A stretch of DNA of 64,000 nucleotides from Bacillus sp. EAC (GTDB lineage Bacteria > Bacillota > Bacilli > Bacillales > Bacillaceae_G). Location of the stretch: positions 372,001 to 436,000 of the forward strand of contig NZ_NCSY01000004.1 of NCBI RefSeq assembly GCF_002156875.1. The letters run 5' to 3'. The position numbers were made by a program, and so were the translations under genes. Shown piece by piece: positions 764-23,159 of this stretch. Numbering within the stretch: the stretch's first letter is position 1; the number at the start of each line of letters is the position of its first letter. The notes beneath the pieces are model-generated. The model did not search any database and was not told where the DNA came from. It saw only the letters and a program-made list of their open reading frames with translations.

Positions 764-783
764 TTGATAAAGCAATTATAGTT

Positions 784-1347: not shown

Positions 1348-1353
1348 TAAGTA

Positions 1354-1800
1354 ACCTCCAGTTACAAGCGTTCTAAATTCTTTTCGATAATATAATTAGA
1401 TTTGTTATCTGGAAAATTTAATGATTCGGACATTTTGTGTAAACATAAAATAAGAAGGTGAAAGTATATTTTTCCTTTTCAACTAACTGTATTTTAAAGT
1501 CGATAATCGTTCCATAGTTAGAGATTTAACATATCTTGCCTCGTAGGCATTAATAGGAGTGTTTTGTTTTCAACTAATTTTAAATCATGTTTAGTTTAAA
1601 ATTTAGCTGCTACTTTTTTCATTTATTGACATAACTTTACTATTTTATAACTATGCAAAAATTGAAAAAACGCATGGACAAATAAGGATGGGTTTGTAAC
1701 TTTTTTTATGGTTTATGGCACCTATTTTTATGAACAATAATACGATATAGAATTAAATTTATTTCTATAGGGAAATAGCCCAGAAAGGAGAAATTGAAAT
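1354..1800. other. Intergenic region with a possible asnO promoter
   Basis: About 450 bases without a gene. A perfect TTGACA hexamer at 1626-1631 is followed by AT-rich sequence (TATAAC at 1646-1651, spacing only 14; TAACTA at 1648, spacing 16). In B. subtilis asnO is expressed in sporulation from a sigma-E promoter; I could not identify a clear sigma-E site here. Confidence 0.35.
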
Positions 1801-3648
1801 ATGTGCGGAATAACTGGGTGGGCAGATTATCAAAATGATTTGTTAAAGTTGACCGATATTTCAAAAAAAATGGCTGACACGTTATCAAAACGTGGTCCTG
1901 ATGATACAAATGTATGGGCATCGAATCATTGCAATTTTGGTCATAAAAGATTAGTTGTTGTCGATCCTGAAGGTGGAAAACAACCAATGCGTAAGTCTAA
2001 AGGGAATTTTACTTATACGTTATGTTATAACGGTGAGTTATACAATACTGAAGATTTACGGAAAGAACTTTTAAAACGAGGGTACACTTTTCAAGGGCAT
2101 TCAGATACAGAAGTGCTGCTTACAAGCTATATAGAGTGGAAAGAGGCTTGTGTAGACAAATTTAATGGTATTTTTGCATTTGCAATTTGGGACGAAGAAA
2201 AAGAAAGCTTATTTATTGCGAGAGACCGATTAGGTGTAAAACCTTTATTTTATAAGGAAGATTATAAAAGATTGTTGTTTGCTTCGGAGGTAAAAGCGAT
2301 ATTAGCTCATCCTGATGTAAAAGCTGAATTAACAGAGGAAGGATTATCTGAAGTATTTGGATTAGGACCATCACGCACACCTGGTAATGGAGTGTTTAAC
2401 GGGATTAAAGAACTTCGTGGTGGGCATGCGATGATATTTTCTAGAAATGGATTACGTGTTTGGAAATATTGGGATGTAGTTAGCAATGTTCATACAGATT
2501 CAGTTGAAGAAACGATTGAAAAAGTTCAATTCCTAGTTAAGGATGCAATCGTCAGACAATTGGTTTCTGATGTTCCACTATGTACATTTTTATCAGGTGG
2601 AGTTGATTCGAGTTCGATTACAGCGATTGCAGCGAATCATTATGCAAAAGAAGGTAAGGGACAATTAACAACCTATTCAATTGATTATGAGGAAAATGAA
2701 AAGTACTTTAAATCTAGTGTTTTTCAACCGAATTCAGATGCTCCTTGGATTGATTTAATGTCATCTACTTTTAATACGAATCATCAACGATGTGTAATTT
2801 CAAATGAAGAACTTGTGCAATATTTGGAAGAAGCAACAGAATGTCGTGATCTACCTGGAATGGCAGATGTTGATTCATCCTTATTATGGTTCTGTCAAAA
2901 AATTAAACAAAAATTCGTAGTTGGCTTATCAGGAGAGTGTGCAGACGAAATTTTTGGTGGTTATCCATGGTTTCATAGAGAAGAAGATTTAAATAGACCG
3001 GCATTTCCTTGGATGAGGTCAACTGAATTAAGACAGCATCTGTTAAAAGGTGAATGGAGTTGTAAATTAAATTTAGCTGCTTATGTTCAGGATCGATATA
3101 ATGAGACGGTGAGTGAAACGCCAATTCTTGAAGGAGAAAGCCATTTAGAGGCGAAAAGAAGACAGTTGTTTTACTTAAATCGCCAATGGTTTATGGCACA
3201 ATTATTAGATCGTAAAGATAGAATGAGTATGGGTGCTAGTTTAGAAGTTCGTGTTCCATTTGCAGATCATCGTTTAGTTGAGTATGTATGGAATATTCCT
3301 TGGGAATTAAAAATGTATGGTAATCGAGAAAAAGGTATATTAAGAAAAGCGTTGGAAGGATTATTGCCAGATGAAATTTTATATCGCAAAAAAAGTCCTT
3401 ACCCAAAAACGCATAACCCTGTGTATACAAAACTGGTCGTCCAAAAATTAAAAGAAAGTTTAAAGGATAAAAGCTCAGCACTATATGAGTTTTTTGATAA
3501 AGAACAGCTTAATAATTTAGTTGAAAGTGAAGGAAATGCATTTCAAGTACCGTGGTATGGTCAGTTGATGTCTGGTCCACAATTACTTGCTCATCTATAT
3601 CAAATTCATGTTTGGTTTAAAAAGTACAATATCAATATTAAGGCATAA
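1801..3648 (+). CDS. asnO: Asparagine synthase (glutamine-hydrolysing)
   Basis: A 615-residue two-domain enzyme that makes asparagine from aspartate, using glutamine as nitrogen donor and ATP. The protein starts Met-Cys-Gly-Ile, so after Met removal Cys2 is the glutaminase nucleophile. The class-II amidotransferase domain spans about residues 1-215 (KRGPDDT, HKRLVVVD, CYNGELYN). The synthetase domain carries the pyrophosphate loop SGGVDSSS at residues 265-272 and a GLSGECADEIFGGY motif near 375. Length and sequence match the AsnO (YisO) group rather than AsnB or AsnH. AAAGGAG lies ten bases upstream of the ATG. The gene is monocistronic and ends at a terminator. In B. subtilis AsnO is a sporulation-associated isozyme. 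Confidence 0.95.
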   Translation: MCGITGWADYQNDLLKLTDISKKMADTLSKRGPDDTNVWASNHCNFGHKRLVVVDPEGGKQPMRKSKGNFTYTLCYNGELYNTEDLRKELLKRGYTFQGHSDTEVLLTSYIEWKEACVDKFNGIFAFAIWDEEKESLFIARDRLGVKPLFYKEDYKRLLFASEVKAILAHPDVKAELTEEGLSEVFGLGPSRTPGNGVFNGIKELRGGHAMIFSRNGLRVWKYWDVVSNVHTDSVEETIEKVQFLVKDAIVRQLVSDVPLCTFLSGGVDSSSITAIAANHYAKEGKGQLTTYSIDYEENEKYFKSSVFQPNSDAPWIDLMSSTFNTNHQRCVISNEELVQYLEEATECRDLPGMADVDSSLLWFCQKIKQKFVVGLSGECADEIFGGYPWFHREEDLNRPAFPWMRSTELRQHLLKGEWSCKLNLAAYVQDRYNETVSETPILEGESHLEAKRRQLFYLNRQWFMAQLLDRKDRMSMGASLEVRVPFADHRLVEYVWNIPWELKMYGNREKGILRKALEGLLPDEILYRKKSPYPKTHNPVYTKLVVQKLKESLKDKSSALYEFFDKEQLNNLVESEGNAFQVPWYGQLMSGPQLLAHLYQIHVWFKKYNINIKA

Positions 3649-3680
3649 AAAGAGGTGGGTATTCACCTCTTTTTTTATTT
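3649..3680 (+). terminator. Terminator of asnO
   Basis: AAAGAGGTG and CACCTCTTT pair around GGTATT, followed by a T run. It sits directly after the asnO stop codon. Confidence 0.9.
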
Positions 3681-3800
3681 GGCTCTGTAAAAAATAATGT
3701 TGATTTCCGTTACAGGGTGCTCCCTTTCCATGGGGCACATCTGTCCTGCTACTCACACAGGAGTCTCGCATATCCGTTCCAATCAACTTCTGTTTGAAGA
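3681..3800. repeat. Interspersed palindromic repeat, copy 1 (shortened)
   Basis: Begins with the end motif GGCTCTGTAAAAAATAATGTTG and continues into the conserved core (GATTTCCGTTACAGGGTGC ... CAGGAGTCTCGCATATCCG, ending CCAATCAA). Compared with the copy at 10470-10692 it lacks about 50 bases of the central palindrome. Short open frames on either strand here are repeat-derived and not genes. Confidence 0.85.
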
Positions 3801-3863
3801 TTTATTTTGCCTGAAAGCAAAAATCAGAATTAAAGTAAGATTGAAGTGTGAGTTTAGTAAATA

Positions 3864-3897
3864 CAAAAAACCTAGCCGTTAAATGACTAGGTTATTT
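3864..3897 (-). terminator. Terminator of amtB-glnK
   Basis: AACCTAG(C) and (A)CTAGGTT pair around a short loop just beyond the glnK stop codon. On the minus strand it is followed by a T run. Confidence 0.8.
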
Positions 3898-3905
3898 GTA
3901 TTTGA

Positions 3906-4268
3906 TTAATAGTCGTTTTGTAATGCGTCTCTACCTTCTTCACCAGTACGAATTTTAATCGCATTTTCGATTGGGTAAACAAAAATTTTGCCATCGCCTG
4001 GCTTGCCTGTTTTTAATACTTTTTTAGCTGCATCTACAACAGATTGGACAGGAACGTCACATACAACGATTTCGACTTTAATTTTTTCATGAAGGTTAAT
4101 AGTACGTTTCGTTCCCCGGTAGACTTCTGTATAGCCTGATTGCATGCCACACCCTAATACATTCGTTACAGTCATGCCTGTAATTCCAACCTTTGAGAGA
4201 GCATCTTTTAATATATCAAACTTATCAGGTCTAGTGATAATTTCTATTTTTGTTAATTTCGCAGTCAT
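3906..4268 (-). CDS. glnK: P-II nitrogen regulatory protein (GlnK/NrgB)
   Basis: A 120-residue PII signalling protein. PII trimers sense 2-oxoglutarate and ATP/ADP and plug the AmtB channel when nitrogen is plentiful. Visible family features are the N-terminal KLTKIEIITRP strand, a T-loop around residues 37-55 (GCGMQSGYTEVYRGTKR) and the B-loop region GKPGDGKIFVYPIENAIKIRTGE at about 85-107. The gene follows amtB by 12 bases and has an AAGGAGG site, so the two form one operon. In B. subtilis the equivalent NrgB also interacts with TnrA. Assignment is firm. Confidence 0.95.
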   Translation of the reverse strand: MTAKLTKIEIITRPDKFDILKDALSKVGITGMTVTNVLGCGMQSGYTEVYRGTKRTINLHEKIKVEIVVCDVPVQSVVDAAKKVLKTGKPGDGKIFVYPIENAIKIRTGEEGRDALQNDY

Positions 4269-4280
4269 TTAAAACCCTCC

Positions 4281-5516
4281 TTATATACTTGCATCATGAT
4301 ATGCTTTTTCACCGTGAATCGCTAAATCAAGACCAAGATTTTCCTCTTCTTGATCGACGCGAACTTGTATGAATAAGCTTATCACTTTCACAATTAGGAA
4401 AGTTAAAACTCCTGCAAATACATAAGTTGCTCCAATCGCAATGAGTTGTTTCCACAATAATGTTACATTTCCATAGAAGAAACCATCTGCACCTGCACTA
4501 TTTACTGATTTTGTAGCAAATAATCCTGTCGCAATAGCTCCCCATGTACCTCCAATACCATGGCAACCAAAAGCATCTAATGCATCATCATAACCAAATT
4601 TGTTTTTTAAATAGGTTACAGCAAGGAAACAAATGATTCCCCCAAAGAATCCTATTGCTATAGAAGACAGTGGTGTAACAAATCCGCATGCTGGTGTAAT
4701 CGCAACTAATCCAGCAACAGCACCACTAACACCACCAAGTAAAGTAGGTTTTTTATTTACATACCACTCAACTAGAACCCATGAAACCGAGGCAGTAGCA
4801 GCGGCAGTATTCGTATTAATAAAAGCAGTTAATGCAACATCATTTAAAGTTAATGCACTACCAACATTGAAACCGAACCATCCAAACCATAATAACCCCG
4901 CACCTAAAACGGTTAAAGGTAAATGATGGGGAGAAGAAGAACCAAAATCTTTTCGTTTACCTAATAATAATGCTAAAACTAAACCAGACACTCCTGACGA
5001 AATATGAACTACAGTTCCACCAGCAAAGTCTAAAGCTCCTAAATTACGTAACCATCCATCAACTCCCCAAACCCAATGAGCTAATGGATCATATACAAGT
5101 GTTGTCCAAAGTAATGTGAATAGTAGAAATGCAGAAAATTTCATCCTTTCGGCGAAAGCACCGGAAATAAGAGCGGGAGTAAGTATTGCGAACATTAGTT
5201 GGAACATCATGAAGAGATTGTGTGGAACTGTTGCGCTATAATTTTCATTTGCTGAGAACCCTACATCTTTTAATCCTGCCCAAGAAAAATCACCTATTAG
5301 GTGTTTTACATCAGGACCAAATGCAAGTGAATAACCAATAAGTACCCATTGAATTGAAACAATGGCCATTGCAGAATAGCTATGCATGGTCGTACTTAAT
5401 ACGTTCTTACTTTTAACCATCCCTCCATAAAAGAGAGCTAAACCAGGTGTCATAATCATAACCAAGACGGTTGAAATAAAGAGAAATACACTATCCGCAG
5501 ATTGAATACCGTTCAT
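4281..5516 (-). CDS. amtB: Ammonium transporter AmtB (NrgA)
   Basis: A 411-residue polytopic membrane protein of the Amt/Rh family, with about eleven membrane helices, that moves ammonia across the membrane. Family motifs include TPGLALFYGGMV near residue 25, DFAGGTVVHISSG near 165 and the pore histidine region DDALDAFGCHGIGGTWG near 315. The ATG at 5516 is preferred over the one at 5522 because GGGGA is then seven bases away instead of one. It is the first gene of an amtB-glnK operon. A perfect TnrA-type box lies about 150 bases upstream, which fits induction under nitrogen limitation. Confidence 0.95.
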   Translation of the reverse strand: MNGIQSADSVFLFISTVLVMIMTPGLALFYGGMVKSKNVLSTTMHSYSAMAIVSIQWVLIGYSLAFGPDVKHLIGDFSWAGLKDVGFSANENYSATVPHNLFMMFQLMFAILTPALISGAFAERMKFSAFLLFTLLWTTLVYDPLAHWVWGVDGWLRNLGALDFAGGTVVHISSGVSGLVLALLLGKRKDFGSSSPHHLPLTVLGAGLLWFGWFGFNVGSALTLNDVALTAFINTNTAAATASVSWVLVEWYVNKKPTLLGGVSGAVAGLVAITPACGFVTPLSSIAIGFFGGIICFLAVTYLKNKFGYDDALDAFGCHGIGGTWGAIATGLFATKSVNSAGADGFFYGNVTLLWKQLIAIGATYVFAGVLTFLIVKVISLFIQVRVDQEEENLGLDLAIHGEKAYHDASI

Positions 5517-5669
5517 TTTCATTCCCCATTTCTTTAATGTTAGATTTTATAACATTAAATGTTATATAACATATCATATTCAGAATATATGCAAAATTCA
5601 ATAAATATTTTCGTAAAAATTCAATTTTTTTTAAAAAATATTTATGAAAACGCTAACAAAATAGTGAAA

Positions 5670-5704: not shown

Positions 5705-5736
5705 AAAATACAGACTCAGAAGTTATGAGTCTGTGC
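5705..5736 (-). terminator. Terminator overlapping the end of the neopullulanase gene
   Basis: CAGACTCA and TGAGTCTG pair around GAAGTTA, with a T run on the minus strand. The stem contains the stop codon at 5716-5718. Confidence 0.8.
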
Positions 5737-7497
5737 ATCAATTTGCAAGATGATAAAATCAACTTGGGGTATATCAATCATGATTGAATCTGAATCTGTA
5801 GCAAATTGTTCATTGTTCCATAAATTAATAATCCTTTTCCCTTTAATATGATAGGGAAGAGATATTGAGCGATTTTCACATGAGTTATTAATAAGTATTA
5901 CAATCGATAAATTTTCCGTTTTTCTTTCATAAGACAGTAGGTTTTGATCATTATCGGTAAAAAGCCATTTAAACGTGCCCTCGTTTTCTATAGCAGGATA
6001 TTGTTTTCTAAGCAATATTAATTTCTTTATAGATTCATAAATGATCGTATTTTGTTTTGATGAGTCCCATTCCATACAACTTCTACATTCAGGATCATTA
6101 CCTCCCTCAAGCCCGATTTCATCACCGTAATAAATACATGGCGTACCGTAAAATGTAAATAGAAAAACAAATAATAGAATTACTCGTTTTTCATTCAAAT
6201 TACATTGTGTCAGTACTCTAGGCGTATCATGGGTACCTAAGACATTAAATAATGCTTTTAATATTGTCAGTGGATAGAGTGAAATAAGATCATTTATTGA
6301 ATTTTGAAAGGTAGCCGTTGAAATTGACTGATACCCAAAGTATGAAAGTAATGATTTCAAAAGAGGATAATTCATGACTGAATCAAATTCATCTCCACGT
6401 AACCACGGCATAGCATGATGCCAAATTTCTCCAACAATAAATAAATCATGTTTAATACCTTTCATCTTTTTATTAAATAATTTCCAAAAATGATGATCAA
6501 TCTCGTTGGCAACGTCTAAACGCCATCCGTCGATATCAAATTCTTTTATCCAGTATGCTCCTACTTCTAATAAGAAGTTTTGAACTTCTTTATTTTCTGT
6601 ATTGAGTTTTGGCATTTCTTTTACAAATGAAAATGTTTCATAAGACAATTCGTTCGATTCAGGATTACCATTCATAAAATGAAACCATTCAAAATATGGT
6701 GAGTTTTTACCATTTTGTAGGGCGTCTTGAAAAGGGGGGAATGACGCACTGGCGTGATTAAAAACAGCATCTAGCATCACACGAATATCATTTTGATGAC
6801 ATGTTTGAATGAGTTTTTTTAATACTTTTTCGTCCCCGAATGTAGGGTCTACTTTAAAATAATTAATCGTATCATATTTATGATTTGAATTTGCCTCAAA
6901 TATAGGCGTTAAGTAGATACCAGTTATTCCTAATTGTTTTAAATAATCTATTTTATGAATAATGCCTTCTAAGTCACCTCCATAAAAACTTGACTGTGTG
7001 GGTCTACTCGATCCCCAAGCTAATGCATCTTTTGGATTATTTAATTGATTACCACTTGCAAAGCGATCTGGGAAAATTTGATACCATACCGTTTTTTTTA
7101 CCCAGTTAGGAAGTAAGATCAGTTCATTGCGATGTAAATAAGCTAACGTAAAGCAAAATGATAAATCATGCGAAATAAACTCATTGGAATAGCCACCTTC
7201 ACCATAAAAAACGCTATATTGTTCACTTTTTAAATAAAATAAATATTTCATTCTCTTGTTTGGTGGAGAAACAGTGACTTCCCAATAATCAAAATGTTCC
7301 GTTGAAAATGCAAGATACATCTGAAGGATTTCCTCGATCTTCCATCCAGCTTCATTGAATTGGAATGGATCTCCATAATAGAAATCGATACCCAAACAAT
7401 CTCCCTTTTTTGTACGTAATCGTATACAATAAGTAAGCTCGTTTATTAAAAATGTATATTGATCGTATGGCTGATGAAAAATTGATTCAATTTGCAT
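5716..7497 (-). CDS. GH13 neopullulanase / cyclomaltodextrinase / maltogenic amylase
   Basis: A 593-residue cytoplasmic glycoside hydrolase family 13 enzyme acting on maltodextrins, cyclodextrins or pullulan fragments. The N-terminal 120 residues look like the extra beta-domain of the neopullulanase group (CBM34 type). The (beta/alpha)8 barrel then shows all four conserved regions: DAVFNH at 243-248, GWRLD with nucleophile Asp328, GEIW with acid/base Glu357, and GTHD with His423-Asp424. There is no signal peptide, so it works on imported oligosaccharides. AAAGGA precedes the ATG. It is divergent from the next GH13 gene, with a near-cre site between them. The exact substrate cannot be read from sequence; B. 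subtilis YvdF is a comparable enzyme. Confidence 0.9.
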   Translation of the reverse strand: MQIESIFHQPYDQYTFLINELTYCIRLRTKKGDCLGIDFYYGDPFQFNEAGWKIEEILQMYLAFSTEHFDYWEVTVSPPNKRMKYLFYLKSEQYSVFYGEGGYSNEFISHDLSFCFTLAYLHRNELILLPNWVKKTVWYQIFPDRFASGNQLNNPKDALAWGSSRPTQSSFYGGDLEGIIHKIDYLKQLGITGIYLTPIFEANSNHKYDTINYFKVDPTFGDEKVLKKLIQTCHQNDIRVMLDAVFNHASASFPPFQDALQNGKNSPYFEWFHFMNGNPESNELSYETFSFVKEMPKLNTENKEVQNFLLEVGAYWIKEFDIDGWRLDVANEIDHHFWKLFNKKMKGIKHDLFIVGEIWHHAMPWLRGDEFDSVMNYPLLKSLLSYFGYQSISTATFQNSINDLISLYPLTILKALFNVLGTHDTPRVLTQCNLNEKRVILLFVFLFTFYGTPCIYYGDEIGLEGGNDPECRSCMEWDSSKQNTIIYESIKKLILLRKQYPAIENEGTFKWLFTDNDQNLLSYERKTENLSIVILINNSCENRSISLPYHIKGKRIINLWNNEQFATDSDSIMIDIPQVDFIILQIDAQTHNF

Positions 7498-7593
7498 GGG
7501 ACCGTCCTTTAATTGTTAAATGTTTGTTGAGTATAAATATGTTAGAAATATTCTTGCTATATAAACAGTAAGCAGTATAATAAAAATAGGTTG

Positions 7594-7607
7594 TGCAATC
7601 GTTTTCA
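7594..7607. promoter_or_regulatory. Near-consensus cre (CcpA site) between the divergent GH13 genes
   Basis: TGCAATCGTTTTCA matches the cre consensus TGWNANCGNTNNCA except for C at the W position. It lies 97 bases upstream of the neopullulanase start and 106 upstream of the secreted GH13 start. Catabolite repression of starch genes is typical in Bacillus. A LacI-family operator for the nearby regulator is an alternative reading. Confidence 0.5.
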
Positions 7608-7712
7608 TTTCTATGATATTTAATATAATATTTGTATTTCCTTCTAATATTTTGCAAAATAATGATAGAGACCGAAAAATGTACATGCACAGTTGTTGCA
7701 GGGGGAGAAAAA

Positions 7713-9224
7713 ATGAAACGATTAAGTTCAATAATACTTGTATTTGTATTACTTTTTAATACAATGCCAAGTATCGGATTTGCAGAGAAAAAAGATGATT
7801 TAAAAACGGATATGATTTACCGTGTTTTAGTCGATCGATTTTTTGATGGGAATCCTAGAAATGATAAAGATACGGATCCGAATGATCTAAATAAATCGCA
7901 AGGTGGCGATTTAGAAGGAATTACAAAAAAACTAGACTATTTAAAGGATTATGGATATACAGCAATATCGATTTCACCTATTTTTGAAAATGATATTAAT
8001 TCTTACGACGGTTTTTCTGTTACAAATTTTAAAAAGATTGACCAAAGATTTGGAACGATGAAGGACTTACAAAAATTAATAAAAGAGGCTCATAAACGTG
8101 ATTTAAAAATCTATCTTGATTTTGTGGTAAATAATTCTTCACCAAATGGAGAATTCGCAAAAAATAAAGATTATGCAAACTGGTTCAATTCTAAAGATAG
8201 TACAAGTTTTGAACAAAAGTGGATAAATGGATTACCAGATTTTAATCAGGATAACAAAGAAGTTCAGCAATATTTTATTGATTTAGGAAAATGGTGGATG
8301 AATCAAGCGGATATTGATGGGTATAACTTACAAGAGGTTAATCATGTTCCAACATCTTTTTGGGAATCTTTTAATAAAGAAATGAAACAACAAAATCCTG
8401 ATTTTGTATTAATTGCTGATTTGAGTCAGCAAGGCAATCAGGATATGAAAAAATATCAAAACGTAGGTTTTGATGGAATTACTGATCTGCCATTAGTAAA
8501 CAAGCTTGTCAACACGTTTGCTTCGCAAAATCAGGCGCTTAAAGAGTTATATACTTATCAAAATGACATGTCTAATCAACTAAATTCAACATCTTTAGTT
8601 AATTATGTAGATGACGAAATGACAGAGCGATTTGTTTCAATTGCGCTGAAAAGGGGAGAGTATCCTCCATCCAGATTAAAATTAGCACTTGTTTATTTGT
8701 TTTCAACACCGGGTACTCCATTGAATTACTACGGAACTGAAATTGCATTAAATGGTGGAAAGATTCCGGATAATCGTAAAGGGATGGATTTCAGATCGGA
8801 TGAGGATTTCTCGAATTATATCAAAAATCTGACTGAGTTAAGAAGTACGTTACCTTCACTAACTAAAGGTGATTCTAAGTTACTTTATGACAAAAAAGGC
8901 ATGACACTATTTAAACGTACATTTAAAAATGAGACTACGATTATAGCGATAAATAATAGCTCATATGATCATAAGGTTCACTTGGATTATGATGTTGTAA
9001 ATAAAAATAAAGAACTAAGAGGTCTTTTAAATGATGATTTAGTCCGTCCGTCAAAGGAAGGATTTGACATCGTCTTAAAACGAGAGTCATCAAACATATA
9101 CGCAGTGGCACCTAAGTCAGGTTTAAATATTGGGGTTATTATTGCAATTCCATCAATTTTTATTGGATTCATCATTTTCCTATGGTTTGCAAGTCGCCGC
9201 CAACGTAAAATGAATGACAAGTAG
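7713..9224 (+). CDS. Secreted, membrane-anchored GH13-fold protein lacking catalytic residues
   Basis: A 503-residue protein with an N-terminal signal peptide (MKRLSSIILVFVLLFNTMPS, cleavage probably after GFA) and a C-terminal membrane helix at about 471-493 followed by basic residues, so it should sit outside the membrane with a C-terminal anchor. The middle is a clear alpha-amylase barrel. Every catalytic position is changed. Region I ends in Asn141 where His is expected. Region II has Asn205 and Gln207 in place of Arg and the Asp nucleophile. Region III has Asp236 in place of the Glu acid/base. Region IV reads DDEMT at 300-304, so the invariant His-Asp pair is Glu302-Met303. The frame is intact, so this looks like a pseudoenzyme, perhaps a surface glucan-binding protein. 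GGGGGAG eight bases upstream supports the ATG at 7713. Confidence 0.85.
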   Translation: MKRLSSIILVFVLLFNTMPSIGFAEKKDDLKTDMIYRVLVDRFFDGNPRNDKDTDPNDLNKSQGGDLEGITKKLDYLKDYGYTAISISPIFENDINSYDGFSVTNFKKIDQRFGTMKDLQKLIKEAHKRDLKIYLDFVVNNSSPNGEFAKNKDYANWFNSKDSTSFEQKWINGLPDFNQDNKEVQQYFIDLGKWWMNQADIDGYNLQEVNHVPTSFWESFNKEMKQQNPDFVLIADLSQQGNQDMKKYQNVGFDGITDLPLVNKLVNTFASQNQALKELYTYQNDMSNQLNSTSLVNYVDDEMTERFVSIALKRGEYPPSRLKLALVYLFSTPGTPLNYYGTEIALNGGKIPDNRKGMDFRSDEDFSNYIKNLTELRSTLPSLTKGDSKLLYDKKGMTLFKRTFKNETTIIAINNSSYDHKVHLDYDVVNKNKELRGLLNDDLVRPSKEGFDIVLKRESSNIYAVAPKSGLNIGVIIAIPSIFIGFIIFLWFASRRQRKMNDK

Positions 9225-9237
9225 GCTAATTAAAAAG

Positions 9238-9262
9238 AGGCTCATTTCTAAACGATTGTTAA
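9238..9262. repeat. Solo end motif of the palindromic repeat
   Basis: GGCTCATTTCTAAACGATTG resembles the end of the interspersed repeat (GGCTCTTTTCTAAAAGATTGTTG) but has no core beside it. Confidence 0.5.
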
Positions 9263-9346
9263 AGTATATAAAATAGCCTAAATGATAAAGACTAAGTGCT
9301 TTACTGATTTGAAGGAATCTTTAAAGCGCTTAGCTAAATAGATAGA

Positions 9347-9360
9347 TGAGAACGGTTACA
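9347..9360 (+). promoter_or_regulatory. cre-like operator upstream of the LacI-family gene
   Basis: TGAGAACGGTTACA fits the cre consensus TGWNANCGNTNNCA at every defined position. It lies 26 bases before the start codon of the LacI-family gene, where binding by CcpA or by the regulator itself would block transcription. Confidence 0.6.
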
Positions 9361-9385
9361 AACATTGGGGATAAGGAGTATTAAA

Positions 9386-10429
9386 ATGACTATTACGATA
9401 AAGGACGTTGCGAAATTAGCAAATGTAGCACCTTCTACGGTGTCGCGTGTAATTTCAAATAGTCCTAGAATTAGTGAAAAAACAAAACGAAAAGTTAGAA
9501 AAGTTATGGATGAGTTGAATTACCATCCAAATTTAAATGCAAGGTCATTAGCTAACCGTTCAACAAAATCAATTGGATTAGTACTTCCGCCTGCATTAGA
9601 TACTTCATTTCAAAATCCATTTTTTGCAGAAGTTATTAGAGGTGTAACTGCTTATTCAAATCAAAAAGAGTATTCACTTTATTTTATTTCTGGTAAAAAC
9701 GAAGAAGAAGTTGAATTAACTGTTAATAAAACAGTACGAGGAAGAAGGGTAGACGGAATTATACTTCTGTACTCGAAAGAAAATGATAATATTATTGATT
9801 ATTTAACTGAGCAACAGTTTCCATTTGTATTAGTAGGAAAACCATATCACTATATTGAGGATATTACTTATATTGATAATGATAATTATGCAGCTGCCAG
9901 AGAAGTGACGAACTATTTAATTGATCAAGGGCATCAAAGAATCGCATTCGTCGGTGGTGAGAGTAGTTTGCTTGTAACGAAAAATCGTTTACGAGGCTTC
10001 CAAGATACGATGCAATTAAACGGTTTACAAGTAAGTGAGCAGGAAATTATCTACACTTCATTTACAAGAGATGGCGGTCGAAAAGCGGTTAATCAATTAT
10101 TAAATCTTGAAGAATTACCATCCGCTATTGTTGTAACAGATGATGTATTAGCATTAGGAATTATTAGTGTATTGCAAGAACATAACATTTCAGTACCAAA
10201 TGATATTTCGATTGTAAGCTTCAATAATGCAATTCTTGCGGAACTTGCAAATCCACCTTTAACATCAGTTGATATTAATATTTATCAATTAGGATACGAG
10301 GCTACTAAAAATATTATTTCTAAAATTGAAGAGCCAGATGGATCAGAAAAAAGTATTCTTGTTCCTTATAAATTGATTATTAGAGAAACATGCGCACGAA
10401 AAGAAAATTTAGAATTAATTCGAAGCTAA
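9386..10429 (+). CDS. LacI-family transcriptional regulator (MalR-like)
   Basis: A 347-residue repressor. Residues 4-23 form the LacI helix-turn-helix (TIKDVAKLANVAPSTVSRVI), followed by the hinge helix NLNARSLANRSTKSIG and a periplasmic-binding-protein-like sugar domain from about residue 60 on. The ATG at 9386 is chosen because AAGGAG lies close upstream and the protein then begins right at the DNA-binding domain. Its neighbours are two GH13 genes, so a maltose or maltodextrin regulator is likely, but the effector is inferred from context. A cre-like operator lies just upstream and a terminator follows. Confidence 0.85.
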   Translation: MTITIKDVAKLANVAPSTVSRVISNSPRISEKTKRKVRKVMDELNYHPNLNARSLANRSTKSIGLVLPPALDTSFQNPFFAEVIRGVTAYSNQKEYSLYFISGKNEEEVELTVNKTVRGRRVDGIILLYSKENDNIIDYLTEQQFPFVLVGKPYHYIEDITYIDNDNYAAAREVTNYLIDQGHQRIAFVGGESSLLVTKNRLRGFQDTMQLNGLQVSEQEIIYTSFTRDGGRKAVNQLLNLEELPSAIVVTDDVLALGIISVLQEHNISVPNDISIVSFNNAILAELANPPLTSVDINIYQLGYEATKNIISKIEEPDGSEKSILVPYKLIIRETCARKENLELIRS

Positions 10430-10460
10430 GGGAAATTCAGTCCGTAGCTTCTTTTTTTAG
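10422..10460 (+). terminator. Terminator of the LacI-family gene
   Basis: GAAGCTA and TAGCTTC pair across a loop, then a T run. The stem begins inside the last codons of the gene. Confidence 0.8.
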
Positions 10461-10469
10461 GCTTAAAAA

Positions 10470-10692
10470 AACTCTAATGCTATAAATATAGAGACTTCTA
10501 GATTTCCATTCCAGGATGCTCGCTTTCCGTGGGGCGTGCGTTGAGCCTCCTCGGCGCACTCGCGCCTGCGGGGTCTCAACTGTCCCGCTACTCCCACAGG
10601 AGTCTCGCACCTTCCTTTTCAATCATTTTCTAATTTACTGTTGGCAAAACAAAACCTTTTTTTAAACAACATCGTATAGAAAAGAGCCTTTA
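10470..10692. repeat. Interspersed palindromic repeat, copy 2
   Basis: A full-length core in the same orientation as copy 1 (CCAGGATGCTCGCTTTCCG ... GCCTCCTCGGCGC ... GCGGGGTCTCAACTGTCCC ... CAGGAGTCTCGCA). It ends at 10692 with the end motif as AGAAAAGAGCC. The GC content is far above that of the flanking sequence. Confidence 0.85.
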
Positions 10693-10792
10693 TTTTAATT
10701 TTTTTATTTGGCTTTGTTATTTGTAATGGCGTATTTAAGAAAAATTGATACTCATGAAAATCAACAATTTAGTTTAAAGATCTATAAATTAA

Positions 10793-10820
10793 AAAGGATG
10801 ACAAATTGTCATCCTTTTTT
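10793..10820 (-). terminator. Terminator of the YajQ gene
   Basis: AAAGGATGAC and GTCATCCTTT pair around AAATT, with T runs on both strands. It lies just past the yajQ stop codon. Confidence 0.85.
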
Positions 10821-10831
10821 GTTATGTATTT

Positions 10832-11323
10832 CTATCGGTAGTTTAAGAATTGTACATCAATCGGTAAATCAGCAGCTCTTACAGCGGCGATGATTGCTTG
10901 TAGATCATCTCTGCTTTTTGCTGTTACACGAACTTGATCATCTTGAACTTGTGATTTTACTTTTAAACCACTATTTTTAATGATCGTGTTGATTTTTTTT
11001 GCATTTTCTTTATCAATTCCTTGAACTAATTTAGCTCTTTGTCTAACTGTTCCACCAGAAGCTGATTCAACTTTACTGTAATCTAAATTTTTAATTGGTA
11101 CATTGCGTTTAACTAATTTACTAATTAATACATCTTTTAATTGTTCCAATTTAAAATCATCATCAGATACTAAAACAAGCTCTTCTTTTTCTAAAGATAT
11201 TGAACTTTTACTACCCTTGAAATCATAGCGTGTAGCAATTTCTTTTGTTGCAAGTTGAATTGCATTTGAGACTTCTGGTAAGTCTACCTTAGAAACAATA
11301 TCAAATGAACTTTCTTTTGACAT
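10832..11323 (-). CDS. yitK: YajQ family nucleotide-binding protein (YitK)
   Basis: A 163-residue cytoplasmic protein of the YajQ/UPF0234 family. It has the typical opening [18 protein letters not shown], then [12 protein letters not shown] near residue 33 and [19 protein letters not shown] near 125. Homologues have two ferredoxin-like folds and bind nucleic acids or cyclic di-GMP; the role in Firmicutes is not settled. A GGAGGG site precedes the ATG. It is divergent from cvfB, the same arrangement as yitK-yitL in B. subtilis. Confidence 0.93.
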
Positions 11324-11446
11324 AGATAGAATCCCTCCAAATCGTTAATACTTGTATTATAGTGTATGATAGTCGAAGTAACAAACTTTCAGTTGGCGTG
11401 ATATAATAAATTTTAGTTTGAAAGTGAAGAGAGGATGTAACAAAGA

Positions 11447-12319
11447 ATGAGTTTACAAGCAGGAGAGATTGTAACTTTAGTGTGCAGTCGTGAAACAGAT
11501 ATTGGGTATATGCTTGTCCAAGATCATGAAGAGGTATTTTTACATAGAAATGAGACACAAGGTGAAATAGAGTTAGACCAAGAAGTTACAGTTTTCTTAT
11601 ATCATGATTCTAAAGGGCGTTTATCATCGACAATGAGTATGCCGCACATTACAACAGAAGGCTATGGATTTGCGAAAGTAGTAGATAAATTAGATGGCAT
11701 AGGTGTATTTGTGGATATTGGTATTTCAAAAGATATTCTATTAGAAAAAGGTGATCTACCTCCTTTAGAAGAAGTTTGGCCACAAGAAGATGATGAAATT
11801 TTTTGTACGCTTAAACAAACAAATAAAGGTCGCTTGTTAATTAAGCTAGCAACTGAACCAGTCATGCAGGAATATTCTGTGCCAGCAGAAGACAGTATGT
11901 TAAATAAAAATGTATCAGGAATAATCTATCGTACTTTACGAGTGGGTTCATATATTTTAACTGATGAACGTTTTATTGGATTTATACATGAATCTCAACG
12001 TAAATCAGAACCACGAATTGGTCAAAGAGTTAGTGGTCGTATTATAGATATTAAAGAGGATGGAAGTGTAAATGTTTCACTTTTACCTAGAGTACATGAG
12101 GGAATGGACCAAGAGGCGGCAGAAATATATGAGTATATTATGAGTCGTGGTGGAGCTATGCCTTATTGGGATAAGAGTGATGCAGAAGATATAAAAACTC
12201 GATTCGGAGTAAGTAAAGCTTCATTTAAACGTTCAATTGGGCGCTTAATGAAAGAAGATAAAGTCTACCAAGAAGGTGGATGGACTTACGCTAAAGAAAT
12301 GTTTGAAAAAAAAGAGTAA
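11447..12319 (+). CDS. cvfB: CvfB/YitL S1-domain RNA-binding protein
   Basis: A 290-residue protein of the CvfB family (B. subtilis YitL), with several S1-like RNA-binding domains at about residues 1-65, 70-135 and 140-215 and a C-terminal winged-helix region (DIKTRFGVSKASFKRSIGRLM, 252 on). In Staphylococcus aureus CvfB influences virulence gene expression; the RNA target in Bacillus is not known. GAGAGG lies twelve bases before the ATG. The gene is divergent from the YajQ gene and has its own terminator. Confidence 0.9.
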   Translation: MSLQAGEIVTLVCSRETDIGYMLVQDHEEVFLHRNETQGEIELDQEVTVFLYHDSKGRLSSTMSMPHITTEGYGFAKVVDKLDGIGVFVDIGISKDILLEKGDLPPLEEVWPQEDDEIFCTLKQTNKGRLLIKLATEPVMQEYSVPAEDSMLNKNVSGIIYRTLRVGSYILTDERFIGFIHESQRKSEPRIGQRVSGRIIDIKEDGSVNVSLLPRVHEGMDQEAAEIYEYIMSRGGAMPYWDKSDAEDIKTRFGVSKASFKRSIGRLMKEDKVYQEGGWTYAKEMFEKKE

Positions 12320-12332
12320 GTATTAGTTAGCG

Positions 12333-12364
12333 TGACCACTTCAATATTTGAAGTGGTTTTTTTG
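12333..12364 (+). terminator. Terminator of cvfB
   Basis: GACCACTTCAA and TTGAAGTGGT pair around TATT, followed by a T run. Confidence 0.85.
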
Positions 12365-12421
12365 CTATTTTTTCTATATTTACAGGCATACTATATTTAT
12401 GAACAATTAGGAGGCTAGTAA

Positions 12422-13273
12422 GTGAGTGAAAAAAGAGAATTAGTTATTAAAGTACTAGTTGTTATACTCGGAGCGTTATTAAATGCTTTTGCAATGAACT
12501 GCTTTCTGATACCGGTAAAAGTTTACTCGAGTGGTTTTTCAGGGTTAGCTCAATTACTTTCAAATTTGATAAGTGATTTTACTCCAATAAACGTTTCTAC
12601 AGGGGTGTTATTAGCAATTTTAAATATACCAGTCGTCATATTAGCCTGGAGAAAAATAGGTCATTCTTTTACTTATTTTACTATTTTAAGTGTAGGGGTC
12701 ATGACAATCTTTTTAGGAATCATTCCAGTTACCCCATTGTTTTCACATGATATTTTACTTAATTCAGTTTTTGGTGGTCTTTTTGCAGCAATTGGGATAG
12801 GTTACACATTAAAATATGGAGCTTCTACAGGTGGTTTAGACATAATTGCCATTGTACTTTCGAGATTAAAAGGAAAACCAGTCGGTACATATTTCTTCTT
12901 ATTTAATGCGATAATCATTTTAATTGCTGGTTATATATACGGAATGGAAAAAGCACTTTATACGTTAATAAACCTTTACGTAACATCAAGATTTATTGAT
13001 GCTATTCACACTAGTCATATTAAAGTTACTGCCTTTATCGTCACTACAAAAGGTGATGAACTCAGAAAAGAAATTCATTCAAGACTTATTCGAGGGATAA
13101 CTACGATGAATGCAAAAGGGGCATTTACGAATCAAGAGAAACAGGTATTTATGATCGTCCTTTCTCGTTATGAATTATATAACTTAAATCGAATTATTAA
13201 ATCTGTTGATGAAAAAGCATTTACGAATATCGTTCAAACAGTAGATGTGTTTGGAGAGTTTAGAAAGATTTAA
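12422..13273 (+). CDS. yitT: YitT family membrane protein, first paralogue
   Basis: A 283-residue membrane protein of the YitT family (DUF161 plus a C-terminal DUF2179 domain). About five to six helices fill residues 8-180, with the family motif YGASTGGLDIIAIVLSRLKG near 137. The soluble C-terminal domain runs from about 200 to the end. AGGAGG seven bases upstream supports the GTG start at 12422. The function is unknown; some relatives have been discussed as transporters. A second close copy follows at 13867, so this is a local duplication. Which copy is the orthologue of B. subtilis yitT cannot be told from sequence alone. Confidence 0.85.
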   Translation: MSEKRELVIKVLVVILGALLNAFAMNCFLIPVKVYSSGFSGLAQLLSNLISDFTPINVSTGVLLAILNIPVVILAWRKIGHSFTYFTILSVGVMTIFLGIIPVTPLFSHDILLNSVFGGLFAAIGIGYTLKYGASTGGLDIIAIVLSRLKGKPVGTYFFLFNAIIILIAGYIYGMEKALYTLINLYVTSRFIDAIHTSHIKVTAFIVTTKGDELRKEIHSRLIRGITTMNAKGAFTNQEKQVFMIVLSRYELYNLNRIIKSVDEKAFTNIVQTVDVFGEFRKI

Positions 13274-13274
13274 C

Positions 13275-13400
13275 GTACCTGAAATTGAGGAATGGCGTGG
13301 ATACGAAAAGGAGTCAGCGTCAGTCTCACTAAAAGGTAATCATCTTAGAGAAGAAACCTTGAACACTAACGACGCTGCAACTTTTGTAGATAGTAAGTAG
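13275..13400 (+). other. Open reading tail out of frame after yitT
   Basis: Just after the yitT stop, an overlapping frame stays open to a TAG near 13400 and reads like a normal acidic soluble protein (VPEIEEWRGYEKESASVS ...). It has no ribosome binding site; a TTG inside the end of yitT is the only start. It may be the tail of a decayed gene. Confidence is low. Confidence 0.2.
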
Positions 13401-13410
13401 AAGAAATGAA

Positions 13411-13462
13411 AAATAGCTGTTCATCTATTCTATAAAAGGGATAGATGAACAGCTATTTTTTG
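13411..13462 (+). terminator. Strong long-stem terminator
   Basis: AAATAGCTGTTCATCTATTC pairs with its near-perfect complement around ATAAAAGG, followed by a T run. It lies 140 bases after the first yitT copy. Confidence 0.85.
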
Positions 13463-13607
13463 AATCTTATTAATAATAAGGCTTTTTATAGTTTATAAAG
13501 TTGTTATTGTCTTTCATAAAGAAATAAATATACTTAAACTATTGGATAAAATTTTGAGTTTAATTTAGAAGTTTAAATTTGTATTAAGTTTAATTAAACG
13601 AACGGAA

Positions 13608-13739
13608 TTAAAGATGATCAACACTCTTAGAAAAAGATTTTTTACCAGCTTGAGCATTTTTATGTTCTTGAGCATGTTTCTTTTCAATCAAAGCGTTATT
13701 ATCTTTTGCTTTTTTATCGTTATCACTAGTATTTGGCAT
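13608..13739 (-). CDS. Small basic protein, 43 residues (DUF3941-like)
   Basis: A 43-residue, Lys/Asn-rich hydrophilic protein beginning MPNTSDNDKKAKDNNA and ending SFSKSVDHL. AAGGAG lies seven bases before the ATG, so it is very likely translated. It resembles the small Bacillus proteins classed as DUF3941, recalled from memory and not checked. It lies on the opposite strand between the two yitT copies. No function is known; the composition (charged, no cysteine, no membrane helix) would suit a spore- or nucleic-acid-associated protein. Confidence 0.7.
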   Translation of the reverse strand: MPNTSDNDKKAKDNNALIEKKHAQEHKNAQAGKKSFSKSVDHL

Positions 13740-13866
13740 GTTTAAGCTCCTTTTCAAAGTTGATAATATTAGCTTTGCCTTTATTAAGTTAATTATGTAA
13801 GAGCGGTCTTATTTTAAAGTTTTTTCATATAGATAGAAGTTGTTTTTATTTTGGGGAGGAATAGAG

Positions 13867-14718
13867 TTGGAAAGAAATAAAGAGCTTATTATTAAGCTGG
13901 TTGTTGTCATAATTGGAGCATTTTTAAACGCTTTTGCGATGAATTGTTTTTTAATTCCTGCTAATATTTACTCAAGTGGTTTTGCAGGATTAGCACAATT
14001 ACTTGCAAATATTATTACGGATTATACTCCATTTACAGCAACTACGGGGATATTATTAGCCATTTTAAATATTCCAGTAATCATATTGGCTTGGAAAAAA
14101 GTAGGTCGTTCTTTTACTTATTATAGTTTTTTTAGTGTCGCAATAATGACATTTTTCTTAGAACTTTTACCAGTAAAACCGATTTTTTCAGATGACATTT
14201 TACTAAATGCTGTATTCGGTGGATTAATTGCTGCTATCGGTATTGGAATGACGTTGAAGTACGGTGGTTCAACTGGAGGATTAGATATTATTGCCCTAGT
14301 ATTATCTAAATCAAAAGGTAAGCCCGTAGGCACTTATTTCTTACTATTTAATTCGATAATTATTATTACTGCAGGTCAACTTTATGGGATGGAAAAAGCA
14401 CTTTATACATTAATTAATTTATATGTGACTACACGAGTCATCGATAGTGTTCATACTAGCCACGTAAAACTAACAGCAATGATCATTACTACAAAAGGTG
14501 TGGAATTAAGCAAGGAAATTCATTCGAAATTAGTTCGCGGTATTACGCTTATGGATGCCAAAGGTGGATTTACTAACCAAGATAAAGACGTTTTAATGAT
14601 TGTTTTATCTCGTTACGAATTATATGATTTAGAGCGTATTATTAAAAAAGTGGACCCTAAAGCTTTCACGAACGTTGTACAGACAGTAGACGTACTTGGT
14701 GAATTTAGAAAATATTAA
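13867..14718 (+). CDS. YitT family membrane protein, second paralogue
   Basis: A 283-residue YitT-family protein, the same length as the copy at 12422 and alignable from end to end without gaps, with identical runs such as GMEKALYTLINLYVT and NAFAMNCFLIP. It has the same layout: several membrane helices to about residue 180, then the DUF2179 domain. The TTG at 13867 is chosen because GGAGG is seven bases upstream and the protein then lines up with the start of the first paralogue. The two copies have clearly diverged at silent and conservative positions, so the duplication is old. Confidence 0.87.
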   Translation: MERNKELIIKLVVVIIGAFLNAFAMNCFLIPANIYSSGFAGLAQLLANIITDYTPFTATTGILLAILNIPVIILAWKKVGRSFTYYSFFSVAIMTFFLELLPVKPIFSDDILLNAVFGGLIAAIGIGMTLKYGGSTGGLDIIALVLSKSKGKPVGTYFLLFNSIIIITAGQLYGMEKALYTLINLYVTTRVIDSVHTSHVKLTAMIITTKGVELSKEIHSKLVRGITLMDAKGGFTNQDKDVLMIVLSRYELYDLERIIKKVDPKAFTNVVQTVDVLGEFRKY

Positions 14719-14839
14719 GTAGATTAATTAAACACTCCTTCAATAAATTATTTAAAACAACGCTTGTTTATGTTTAGTGTTGATATTAAAAACGCATTGT
14801 TCTGAAAGATTTAACAGGATTTGAATCAAAGAGTTTATA

Positions 14840-14983
14840 TAGAGATTTGATTGGAGTGGAAGGTACGAGACTCCTGTGGGAGTAGCGAGAAGGATGAGAC
14901 CCCGCAGGCTTGCCGAGGAGGCTCAACTCACGCCCCACGGAAAGAGAGCATCCTGTAACGGAAATCAACATTTTTAACAATGC
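14840..14983. repeat. Interspersed palindromic repeat, copy 3 (reverse orientation)
   Basis: Reads GATTGGAGTGGAAGGTACGA, then GAGACTCCTGTGGGAGTAGC, GACCCCGCAGGC, GAGGAGGCTCAAC, CACGCCCCACGGAAAG and GGAAATCAACATTTTTAACA. This is the reverse complement of copy 2. Confidence 0.85.
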
Positions 14984-14985
14984 CT

Positions 14986-15019
14986 AAAAAAAGGTAGGAC
15001 TTCCCTACCTTTTTTATTT
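14986..15019 (+). terminator. Terminator between yitT copy 2 and the lipoprotein gene
   Basis: AAAAGGTAGG and CCTACCTTTT pair around ACTTC, with A and T runs on the two sides, so it can work in both directions. Confidence 0.8.
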
Positions 15020-15086
15020 TTTTAAACCTATTTTTCAGTTTTTTGGTATAATTTAGAATAAGGATACTAAAAAGGTGGAGATTATT

Positions 15087-15908
15087 TTGAAAAAGAGATA
15101 CATTCTCTTATTAACTTGTTCACTTCTACTTTCTGGCTGTGGAGCAAATAATGAAAAGGAAATAAAGCCAACACCAAGTACAAAACAAACAATTGAACAG
15201 AATAATGATATTGATATTTCTAAACTCTCAACGAAATTAGAAGTTACAGAAGCAAATGGACTTGTTACAATGAGATATTCACTTCGTAATGGAGATACAA
15301 TTCCTGCTAAATTAACTTTCCCATCAGCGCAAATAATTGATTATACAATTAAAAATGCACAAGGTGAAGTTATATACCAATCATCAAAAGATTTATCTTA
15401 TGCACAAGCTATTACTGATGTAACGATACCTGAAGAAAAGGCCCAGGTTTGGCAAGAGCAAGTAAACCTTGCAGATAAAAATCTTCCTTTTGGTAATTAT
15501 GAAGTAACAGCAAATATTGTAGCAAAATCGATTAATGATAAAGATGTTCAAGGTGCGATCCAACCAATCCAACAATCGTTTTCTTATCATAAAGTTTCAA
15601 CAGTTAATGATAATGGGTCTAAAATTGTAATTAGTGGTGAAAATGGTCATTACGAGGTAAAAGGTACATATTTATCTGATCAAGATACTATTTATTATTC
15701 TGTTGAAGATGGACACAATAATCTAATTGATGAAACTGTATTACCAGTTAAAATTAAAAGTGGTTCAGTTAACTTATTAGATTTTAGTTTAGATATACCA
15801 AAAGAGAGTTTGCCGAACAATGGTGTAATCACACTTGTCATTTACGAAAAAAATAAAGACGACCAGGTTACAAAATCATTGATTGCTCCATTACAGCAGT
15901 TTGAATAA
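15087..15908 (+). CDS. Lipoprotein with a BsuPI-type domain
   Basis: A 273-residue exported lipoprotein. The signal peptide ends in the lipobox LLSGC at about residues 16-20 (counted from the TTG at 15087), so the Cys is acylated and the protein is anchored outside the membrane. Residues 50-150 resemble the BsuPI (intracellular proteinase inhibitor) beta-sandwich: VTMRYSLRNGDTIPAKLTF, then DYTIKNAQGEVIYQSSKD. The rest is a second beta-rich region. The TTG is preferred over the GTG at 15075 because AAAGGTGGAG is then correctly spaced. The proteinase-inhibitor name comes from the family; the real role of this secreted version is unknown. It has its own terminator. Confidence 0.75.
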   Translation: MKKRYILLLTCSLLLSGCGANNEKEIKPTPSTKQTIEQNNDIDISKLSTKLEVTEANGLVTMRYSLRNGDTIPAKLTFPSAQIIDYTIKNAQGEVIYQSSKDLSYAQAITDVTIPEEKAQVWQEQVNLADKNLPFGNYEVTANIVAKSINDKDVQGAIQPIQQSFSYHKVSTVNDNGSKIVISGENGHYEVKGTYLSDQDTIYYSVEDGHNNLIDETVLPVKIKSGSVNLLDFSLDIPKESLPNNGVITLVIYEKNKDDQVTKSLIAPLQQFE

Positions 15909-15947
15909 AAAAAACAACCATAGGTATAATCCTATGGTTGTTTTTTG
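15909..15947 (+). terminator. Terminator of the BsuPI lipoprotein gene
   Basis: AACAACCATAGG and CCTATGGTTGTT pair around TATAAT, with runs of A and T on either side. Confidence 0.9.
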
Positions 15948-15971
15948 CTTATATTGGCTTAAGCATGTTTG

Positions 15972-16106
15972 TTAATAGCTTTTGTTTTTAGCCTTACGTT
16001 CCTCAGCTTCGGCTAAAGTGAAATGATAAGGGAACTTTTCAGAGTATTTCGTAACAGAATCAGAACTTTGTTGTATAAAGCGCTTTGACTTATTACTTTT
16101 GCCCAT
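15972..16106 (-). CDS. Small hydrophilic protein, 44 residues
   Basis: A 44-residue, Lys/Ser/Glu-rich protein starting MGKSNKSKRFIQQSSDS and ending EERKAKNKSY. GGGAGG stands nine bases before the ATG at 16106, which favours real translation from here over a longer start upstream. I do not recognise the family. It is downstream of the yitU gene on the same strand, 164 bases away. Small basic proteins of this kind are common in Bacillus spores, but nothing here proves that. Confidence 0.6.
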   Translation of the reverse strand: MGKSNKSKRFIQQSSDSVTKYSEKFPYHFTLAEAEERKAKNKSY

Positions 16107-23121: not shown

Positions 23122-23159
23122 CTGCAAGCGGTTTCATTGGGAAGTTGCTTGTATGAGTA

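Follow-up and report, generated by a model that had tools for sequence, protein, structure and literature searches.

A GH13_45-derived pseudoamylase is kept under purifying selection in Gottfriedia and probably has a non-catalytic role at the cell surface

The window analysed here is a 64,000-nucleotide stretch of Bacillus sp. EAC (contig NZ_NCSY01000004.1, positions 372,001 to 436,000). At 7713-9224 it contains a gene whose product has the fold of an alpha-amylase of subfamily GH13_45, but in which the entire catalytic site is replaced. The gene is conserved in the genus Gottfriedia and evolves under purifying selection. We consider it fairly probable that the product is a membrane-anchored pseudoamylase, descended from a GH13_45 enzyme and maintained for a non-catalytic job at the cell surface. 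The subfamily names, including GH13_20, and the gene labels mdxE, mdxF and mdxG stand for what we take these genes to be.

The gene and its parts are:

7713-9224 (+), GH13_45-derived pseudoamylase gene, 503 residues (open frame, Pfam matches, solved relatives)
7713-7784 (+), predicted signal peptide, about residues 1-24 (hydropathy, conservation)
8133-8135 (+), codon of N141, replacing the His of conserved sequence region (CSR) I
8325-8333 (+), codons of N205-L206-Q207, replacing Arg-x-Asp, the Asp being the nucleophile
8418-8420 (+), codon of D236, replacing the acid/base Glu
8616-8621 (+), codons of E302-M303, replacing the His-Asp of CSR-IV
8865-9116 (+), domain C, about residues 385-468, with its constraint kept (PF22026 at 386-463; omega by domain)
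9129-9221 (+), predicted C-terminal transmembrane segment and basic tail (hydropathy; conserved in 13 Gottfriedia proteins)

A GH13_45 fold with a dismantled catalytic site

The frame runs through 503 codons without interruption, and a ribosome-binding-like AGGGGGAG precedes its start. The protein matches the Pfam family Alpha-amylase with 162 bits (cut-off 22), a significant match to the catalytic domain, and Alpha-amylase_C_2 with 93 bits, also above the cut-off. The closest solved structures are 5a2b, 5a2a and 4e2o, which match over approximately residues 31-473 with 410-424 bits (E 1e-125 for the Anoxybacillus amylase). These are alpha-amylases of Anoxybacillus and Geobacillus, which are assigned to GH13_45 in the literature (PMC11448133; here and below, the cited papers are covered in part).

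The window protein resembles the GH13_45 amylases ASKA/TASKA, GTA and BaqA in several respects. It has the LPDlx motif of CSR-V (LPDFN at residues 174-178), the adjacent tryptophan pair of helix alpha3 (W194-W195; Tyr-Trp in 10 of 12 window-type proteins), a match to domain C, a signal peptide and a C-terminal hydrophobic tail. The two ends were read from hydropathy, not from a dedicated predictor; it reaches 3.05 at the N-terminus and 2.83 at the C-terminus, the latter with a basic RRQRK tail, and this fits a signal peptide and a membrane anchor. Five aromatic residues were counted by eye in the tail (F483, F486, F489, W491 and F492). The initial annotation of this stretch had described a recognisable GH13 fold in an intact frame with signal peptide and anchor retained, and this description holds. 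The AlphaFold model of the protein is unusable (predicted local distance difference test, pLDDT, 48.3; predicted template modelling score, pTM, 0.43; nine sequences in the alignment), so the fold is claimed from the sequence similarity to solved structures.

While these GH13_45 amylases have a full catalytic set, the window protein has lost six of six catalytic-site residues, which are replaced by N141, N205, Q207, D236, E302 and M303. The residues were assigned by alignment with intact relatives, i.e., those with the full set (99 at first, later 109), and agree to the residue with the six substitutions named in the initial annotation. The Asp-Glu-Asp triad is absent, with Q207, D236 and M303 in its place. 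As the catalytic machinery is incomplete, we file the protein as a GH13_45-derived pseudoenzyme and not as a GH13_45 amylase. The 99 intact relatives have 134 columns with a conservation of 95% or more. Of these, 73 are unchanged in the 12 window-type proteins, 38 are variable and 23 are invariant but different; the last group takes in five of the six catalytic positions.

The substrate cleft has changed as well. TASKA binds maltose at subsites -1 and -2, and its structure paper names the residues that hold the sugar (PMC4791539). We mapped 12 cleft positions, eleven of those named in that paper plus the CSR-I His from the alignment; W166, also named, lies outside the mapped set. Nine of the 12 are replaced in the window protein (Y100F, W101S, R211N, D213Q, E242D, W244S, H309E, D310M and H140 to Asn, in TASKA numbering), including the maltose-bonding Trp101 and Arg211. 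The stacking Tyr of subsite -1 has thereby become Phe, and the position is still aromatic in the 12 window-type proteins (Phe in 11, Tyr in one). R362 is retained as R355, which is invariant in these 12 proteins. The window protein also retains H217, where 10 of the 12 have Asn. At the position of Y143 it has Pro, a residue found there in 47 of the 99 relatives with the full set.

These changes bear on the suggestion in the initial annotation that the retained fold is selected for binding maltodextrin or starch. As a receptor, the dead cleft would still hold glucan at the surface and pass it to uptake. The invariant R355 and the preserved aromatic at subsite -1 are consistent with such a role, as are the LacI-type site beside the GH13_20-type enzyme (see below) and the binding of raw starch granules by BmaN1 (PMC11448133). 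However, with most cleft positions replaced, Trp244, His309 and Asp310 among them in addition to Trp101 and Arg211, a maltodextrin receptor that works through the old cleft is unlikely, and the importer genes discussed below also speak against it.

Degenerate GH13_45 triads are already published. BmaN1 from Bacillus (Priestia) megaterium and a small group around it have irregular substitutions of the whole triad, and BmaN1 is reported to be active (PMC5347038). In BmaN1, Lys and His replace the two Asp, and the reported activity is 1.5-8.4 U/mg (PMC5347038, PMC11448133), with 1.54 U/mg for the refolded protein (PMC11448133). It binds raw starch, and its authors assign this binding to the C-terminal region (PMC11448133). 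A 2025 study finds the majority of the subfamily without complete conserved regions (PMC12695923). The BmaN1 group and the seven "irregular" sequences (Nos 28-34) of Sarian et al. 2017 (PMC5347038), which are GH13_45-like with altered triads, are the precedent for the window protein, and it is possible that Nos 28-34 overlap with the relatives studied here. The signature of the BmaN1 group (Lys, His, Glu) is not found in the window protein, which has Q207, M303 and D236. BmaN1 keeps its acid/base Glu; in the window protein this residue is Asp, and the set as a whole differs.

What BmaN1 and the window protein have in common is an acidic residue after the lost nucleophile. Residue 208, one step past the nucleophile and at the place of BmaN1 Asp203, is Glu in 11 and Asp in one of the 12 window-type proteins, while all 109 intact relatives have Thr or Ala there. 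Residue 208, D236 and E302 could form a new carboxylate set, as has been proposed for BmaN1 Asp203, and the published activity of BmaN1 (PMC5347038) makes such a rebuilt active site conceivable. We regard it as improbable, given that the CSR-I His, the CSR-II Arg, the CSR-IV His and Trp101 are also lost and that constraint on the barrel is relaxed several-fold (see below); the AlphaFold model is too poor to judge the geometry.

Conservation and purifying selection in the genus

Eight proteins from named strains match the window protein at 68-70% identity, two from Gottfriedia acidiceleris, one from G. luciferensis and five from Bacillus sp. strains. Eight further copies from the genus share an identical core with them. 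The source genome falls in the same genus group, and from this we infer that it is a Gottfriedia species. In 13 of 13 genus genomes there is a single pseudoamylase match at E 1e-60 and the gene is open; with one match per genome, an additional GH13_45 copy that is still active is ruled out.

The substitutions themselves are shared. The six catalytic positions read NNQDEM in 11 of the 12 window-type proteins and NYQDEM in the remaining one, and identical substitutions in independent genomes exclude chance or sequencing error. The thirteenth protein, from a deeper species (G004, 52% identity), reads NRDDET, i.e., the Arg and the nucleophile are kept while the CSR-I His, the acid/base Glu and the CSR-IV pair are lost. 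This half-way set suggests that the catalytic residues were lost stepwise.

The median ratio of non-synonymous to synonymous substitution rates (dN/dS, or omega) of the pseudoamylase is 0.138 over 45 pairs from ten species, by the Nei-Gojobori method and with the window-to-sister dS near saturation. The corresponding values are 0.105 for the GH13_20 neighbour, 0.063 for LacI, 0.050 for CvfB, 0.045 for YajQ and 0.031 for AmtB. Of these six genes, the pseudoamylase is therefore under the weakest constraint, yet it is far from neutral. The frame is open throughout the genus even where dS reaches about 1.5, a distance at which tens of stops are expected under neutrality: a neutral simulation has nine stops at 0.1 substitutions per site already, and 0 of 2000 runs remain open at any of the four simulated distances, which span 0.1 to 1.5 substitutions per site. 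A lone TAA flagged in one genome (G012) is taken as the real stop within the tail of the match, the protein there being 497 residues long.

A pseudogene, a frameshift or an assembly error is ruled out by the open frame, the genus-wide conservation, the dN/dS and the neutral simulation. The evidence supports that the pseudoamylase is kept under purifying selection and is not decaying. Selection in place of simple decay had been argued in the initial annotation, and a dN/dS well away from 1, the same substitutions in close relatives and the lack of broken copies among the 13 genus genomes all bear this out.

Recurrent loss and its link to importer genes

Homologues were found in 212 of the 397 genomes of the order that were searched. 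The set examined consists of the best 150 of these 212 matches and three proteins from a family search, in total 153 distinct proteins from 153 genomes; linkage counts and the tree refer to this set, while the locus typing covers 124 stretches. The full H-R-D-E-H-D set is present in 109 of the 153 relatives. The other 44 depart from it to different degrees, with just one change at the lower end (L063, L097) and all positions replaced at the upper end, and four of them are BmaN1-like (L140, L186-L188). By hydropathy, all 44 departed proteins have hydrophobic stretches at both ends and a basic C-terminal tail.

When the six catalytic columns are left out, a quick protein tree contains seven changes between intact and departed, six of them forced by well-supported branches. 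From GH13 at large we infer that these changes are losses and not gains. In the quick trees, Gottfriedia falls among departed rows with long branches, in a starred set of 21 rows in the first tree and of 28 in the second. However, a tree that holds the 13 Gottfriedia together with five family-mates, of which four are intact and L032 is departed, is better by 33 log-likelihood units (approximately unbiased test, p-AU 0.867). The starred branch joining Gottfriedia to the departed rows was consequently rejected as at least partly a long-branch artefact, which also makes the change counts from the quick trees rough. As the constrained tree is better, the loss in Gottfriedia is best read as a separate event within its family.

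Beside intact relatives, the usual gene order is GH13_20, then binding protein-permease-permease, amylase and lacI. The three importer genes (mdxE-mdxF-mdxG) are absent from the Gottfriedia locus. The middle genes match Pfam SBP and BPD_transp, while the NCBIfam models MalE/GanS, MalF and MalG score below their cut-offs, so the term "maltodextrin importer" is taken from the neighbourhood. Of the 109 intact genes, 106 have two or more of the three importer genes beside them, compared with only 4 of the 44 departed ones; put the other way, fewer than two accompany 40 of the 44 departed and 3 of the 109 intact genes. No importer gene at all is found beside 34 of the 44, and six have a lone mdxE-like neighbour. 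Fisher's test of departure against importer linkage gives p 1.4e-28 with kinship ignored; six independent pairs from the quick tree go the same way in 5.8 cases on average and in none the opposite way (median p 0.03). The flanks vary from about 1.5 to 8 kb per side and are shorter at contig ends, and the absence of importer genes is least sure where they are short.

The same pattern is seen genome-wide. By hand count, an MdxF homologue with at least 58% identity is present in 12 of 13 intact genomes, a chosen subset of the 109 that includes the three unlinked ones, compared with 7 of the 44 departed genomes. The three unlinked intact genes have their MdxF homologue elsewhere in the genome. Within Gottfriedia, there is no MdxF match at E 1e-60 in eight of the 13 genomes, and the other five have a 46% paralogue. 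The gene thus persists in eight genomes without an MdxF match and is not dependent on that importer, other importers not having been searched for. Together with the replaced cleft, this weakens the case for a retained maltodextrin or starch receptor.

Constraint has shifted between the domains

In eight intact clades, omega is 0.024-0.064 for the barrel, 0.034-0.148 for domain C and 0.031-0.137 for the anchor. The corresponding ranges in six departed clades are 0.130-0.245, 0.083-0.159 and 0-0.224; three clades on each side rest on three pairs or fewer. Seven intact clades have a ratio of barrel to domain C of 0.35-0.57, and in the departed clades this ratio is 0.90-1.67. The departed barrel is relaxed several-fold yet under purifying selection, and constraint on domain C and the anchor is about the same as in intact clades. 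A new constraint on domain C, considered because of its higher identity at equal barrel identity, was discarded, as the dN/dS by domain shows mainly relaxation of the barrel.

A barrel omega several times higher in departed clades, and a departure that tracks importer loss, could also be understood as slow decay, in which the departure of the importer made catalysis useless and the gene is being lost. We find this highly improbable. Barrel omega stays at 0.13-0.25 in the six departed clades, the hydrophobic ends are kept in 44 of 44 departed proteins, and the gene is present and open in all 13 genus genomes at distances where the neutral simulation predicts tens of stops.

The highest barrel omega measured, 0.245 (six pairs, low dS), is that of the BmaN1-like relatives L140 and L186-L188, though BmaN1 is published as active.

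A possible function at the cell surface

For a pseudoamylase maintained for a non-catalytic surface job, we suggest the following. The signal peptide would secrete the protein and the C-terminal helix would hold it at the outer face of the membrane. Domain C and the anchor would be the working parts, and the barrel would serve as a rigid body whose rebuilt pocket is non-hydrolytic. The most likely task of the protein would be to dock an alpha-glucan, another surface polymer or a protein near the membrane, and the neighbouring LacI regulator would govern the gene together with the divergent GH13_20 enzyme. Because little of the old sugar subsites is left and the gene persists where the importer is gone, we assume that the protein docks or scaffolds through domain C, the anchor or the surface of the barrel. 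By analogy with the starch binding of BmaN1, and from the trio with GH13_20 and LacI, an alpha-glucan is suggested as the ligand, and raw-starch binding in BmaN1 implies that binding may still occur via domain C or the C-terminal region.

Several observations weigh against this proposal. No ligand or partner emerged from the sequence analysis, and the pocket is not visible in the poor AlphaFold model. BmaN1 is reported to be active despite its broken triad, so residue loss alone is no proof of inactivity. The barrel to domain C ratio is 1.89 in the remaining intact clade (one pair) and just 0.90 in one departed clade (three pairs). The full importer set is still found beside four departed genes (L135, L138, L146 and L182), which are exceptions to the importer rule, and three more departed genomes (G119, G266 and G152) have the importer elsewhere, while one intact genome (G015) has no MdxF match despite mdxE and mdxG beside the gene. 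Finally, outside Gottfriedia, 12 of 20 typed departed loci have no LacI-cluster gene in the stretch at hand, so the regulon argument applies mainly to Gottfriedia.

A wider idea, which we put forward tentatively and are inclined to doubt, is that the anchored GH13_45 amylases of the order have a second, catalysis-independent function seated in domain C and the anchor. Importer loss would then free catalysis from constraint, with the second function alone being retained, and pseudoamylases would have arisen in parallel many times; the Gottfriedia protein would be an end state and a bacterial counterpart of the dead-amylase scaffold of the 4F2hc type. In animals, 4F2hc/rBAT have a membrane-anchored amylase-family ectodomain and act as the heavy subunit of amino-acid transporters (PMC8537225). 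The likeness would be one of architecture and is not a claim of kinship; 4F2hc/rBAT are tied to a transporter, and for the window protein no partner was found.

Compared with the published degenerate triads, the genus-wide fixation, the recurrence and the importer link are additions of this study. The parts of the BmaN1 papers covered contain no recurrent, selected pseudoenzyme tied to importer loss. No paper pairing Gottfriedia with amylase was found in the open-access literature searched, and among the matches listed there, judged by titles and the starts of abstracts, the BmaN1 paper is the only one on a bacterial GH13 pseudoenzyme. The recurrent conversion of an enzyme into a pseudoenzyme, with a living half-way form and importer loss as a correlate, offers a natural experiment on the roles of an anchored amylase beyond starch cleavage. 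For annotation it is also a caution, as GH13_45-like entries are not always amylases; 44 of 153 are without part or all of the catalytic set.

The locus and its upstream region

The neighbouring features are:

5716-7497 (-), divergent neopullulanase/cyclomaltodextrinase-type GH13 enzyme (catalytic residues present; adjoins in 13 of 13 Gottfriedia loci)
7554-7581 (+), sigma-A-like promoter TTGCTA-16-TATAAT (conservation)
7594-7607 (no strand), LacI/cre-like operator TGCAATCGTTTTCA, core GCAATCG in 13 of 13 aligned Gottfriedia sequences
7648-7661 (no strand), 14-base palindrome TATTTTGCAAAATA within the leader (shared by 11 of the 13 aligned Gottfriedia sequences)
9365-10429 (+), LacI-family regulator, start probably at 9386 (adjoins in 13 of 13 Gottfriedia loci)

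The trio of GH13_20, pseudoamylase and lacI is preserved in all 13 Gottfriedia loci. The divergent enzyme shares its fold with the window protein (32% identity over residues 31-442 of the latter) but differs by an extra N-terminal domain, by intact catalytic residues (all six, read by eye) and by having no evident signal peptide, and for this last reason it is probably cytosolic. The description of an active full-length GH13 neighbour is thus right as to the residues, but the enzyme probably works inside the cell. Shared control, also proposed in the initial annotation, is plausible, as the region between the two divergent genes contains a LacI-type site.

In the aligned Gottfriedia upstream sequences, TATAAT is found in 13 of 13 and TTGCTA in 11 of 13. 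A promoter scan gave 6 sites compared with 10.9 in shuffled sequences, i.e., no excess, and the candidate promoter is therefore put forward on its conservation. The operator motif has two matches in the window with up to one mismatch, against 0.56 expected; the second copy, TGCAAGCGGTTTCA, with one mismatch, lies at 23123-23136, directly after an open reading frame ending at 23121.

The source genome has a second operon of the same layout (C25:236000-255900, 8465-18041). Here a GH13_20-type gene stands divergently to the genes of a binding protein, two permeases, a GH13 enzyme and a LacI regulator. The GH13 enzyme is lipoprotein-like, with its six catalytic residues intact by eye, the LacI regulator is 56% identical to that of the window, and the 46% MdxF paralogue of this genome sits in this operon. 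A dependence of the pseudoamylase on this maltose-type operon was considered and rejected, since its type of MdxF is found in five of 13 genomes and the pseudoamylase in all 13.

The source genome also encodes a 1691-residue GH13 pullulanase-like protein with a signal-like N-terminus and with catalytic residues seen by eye (C23:164000-176000, 507-5582), and the organism thus probably has other extracellular alpha-glucan enzymes. In the window, tandem paralogues of a YitT-family membrane protein (Pfam) lie at 12422-13273 and 13840-14718, and they are found beside the locus in most Gottfriedia stretches.
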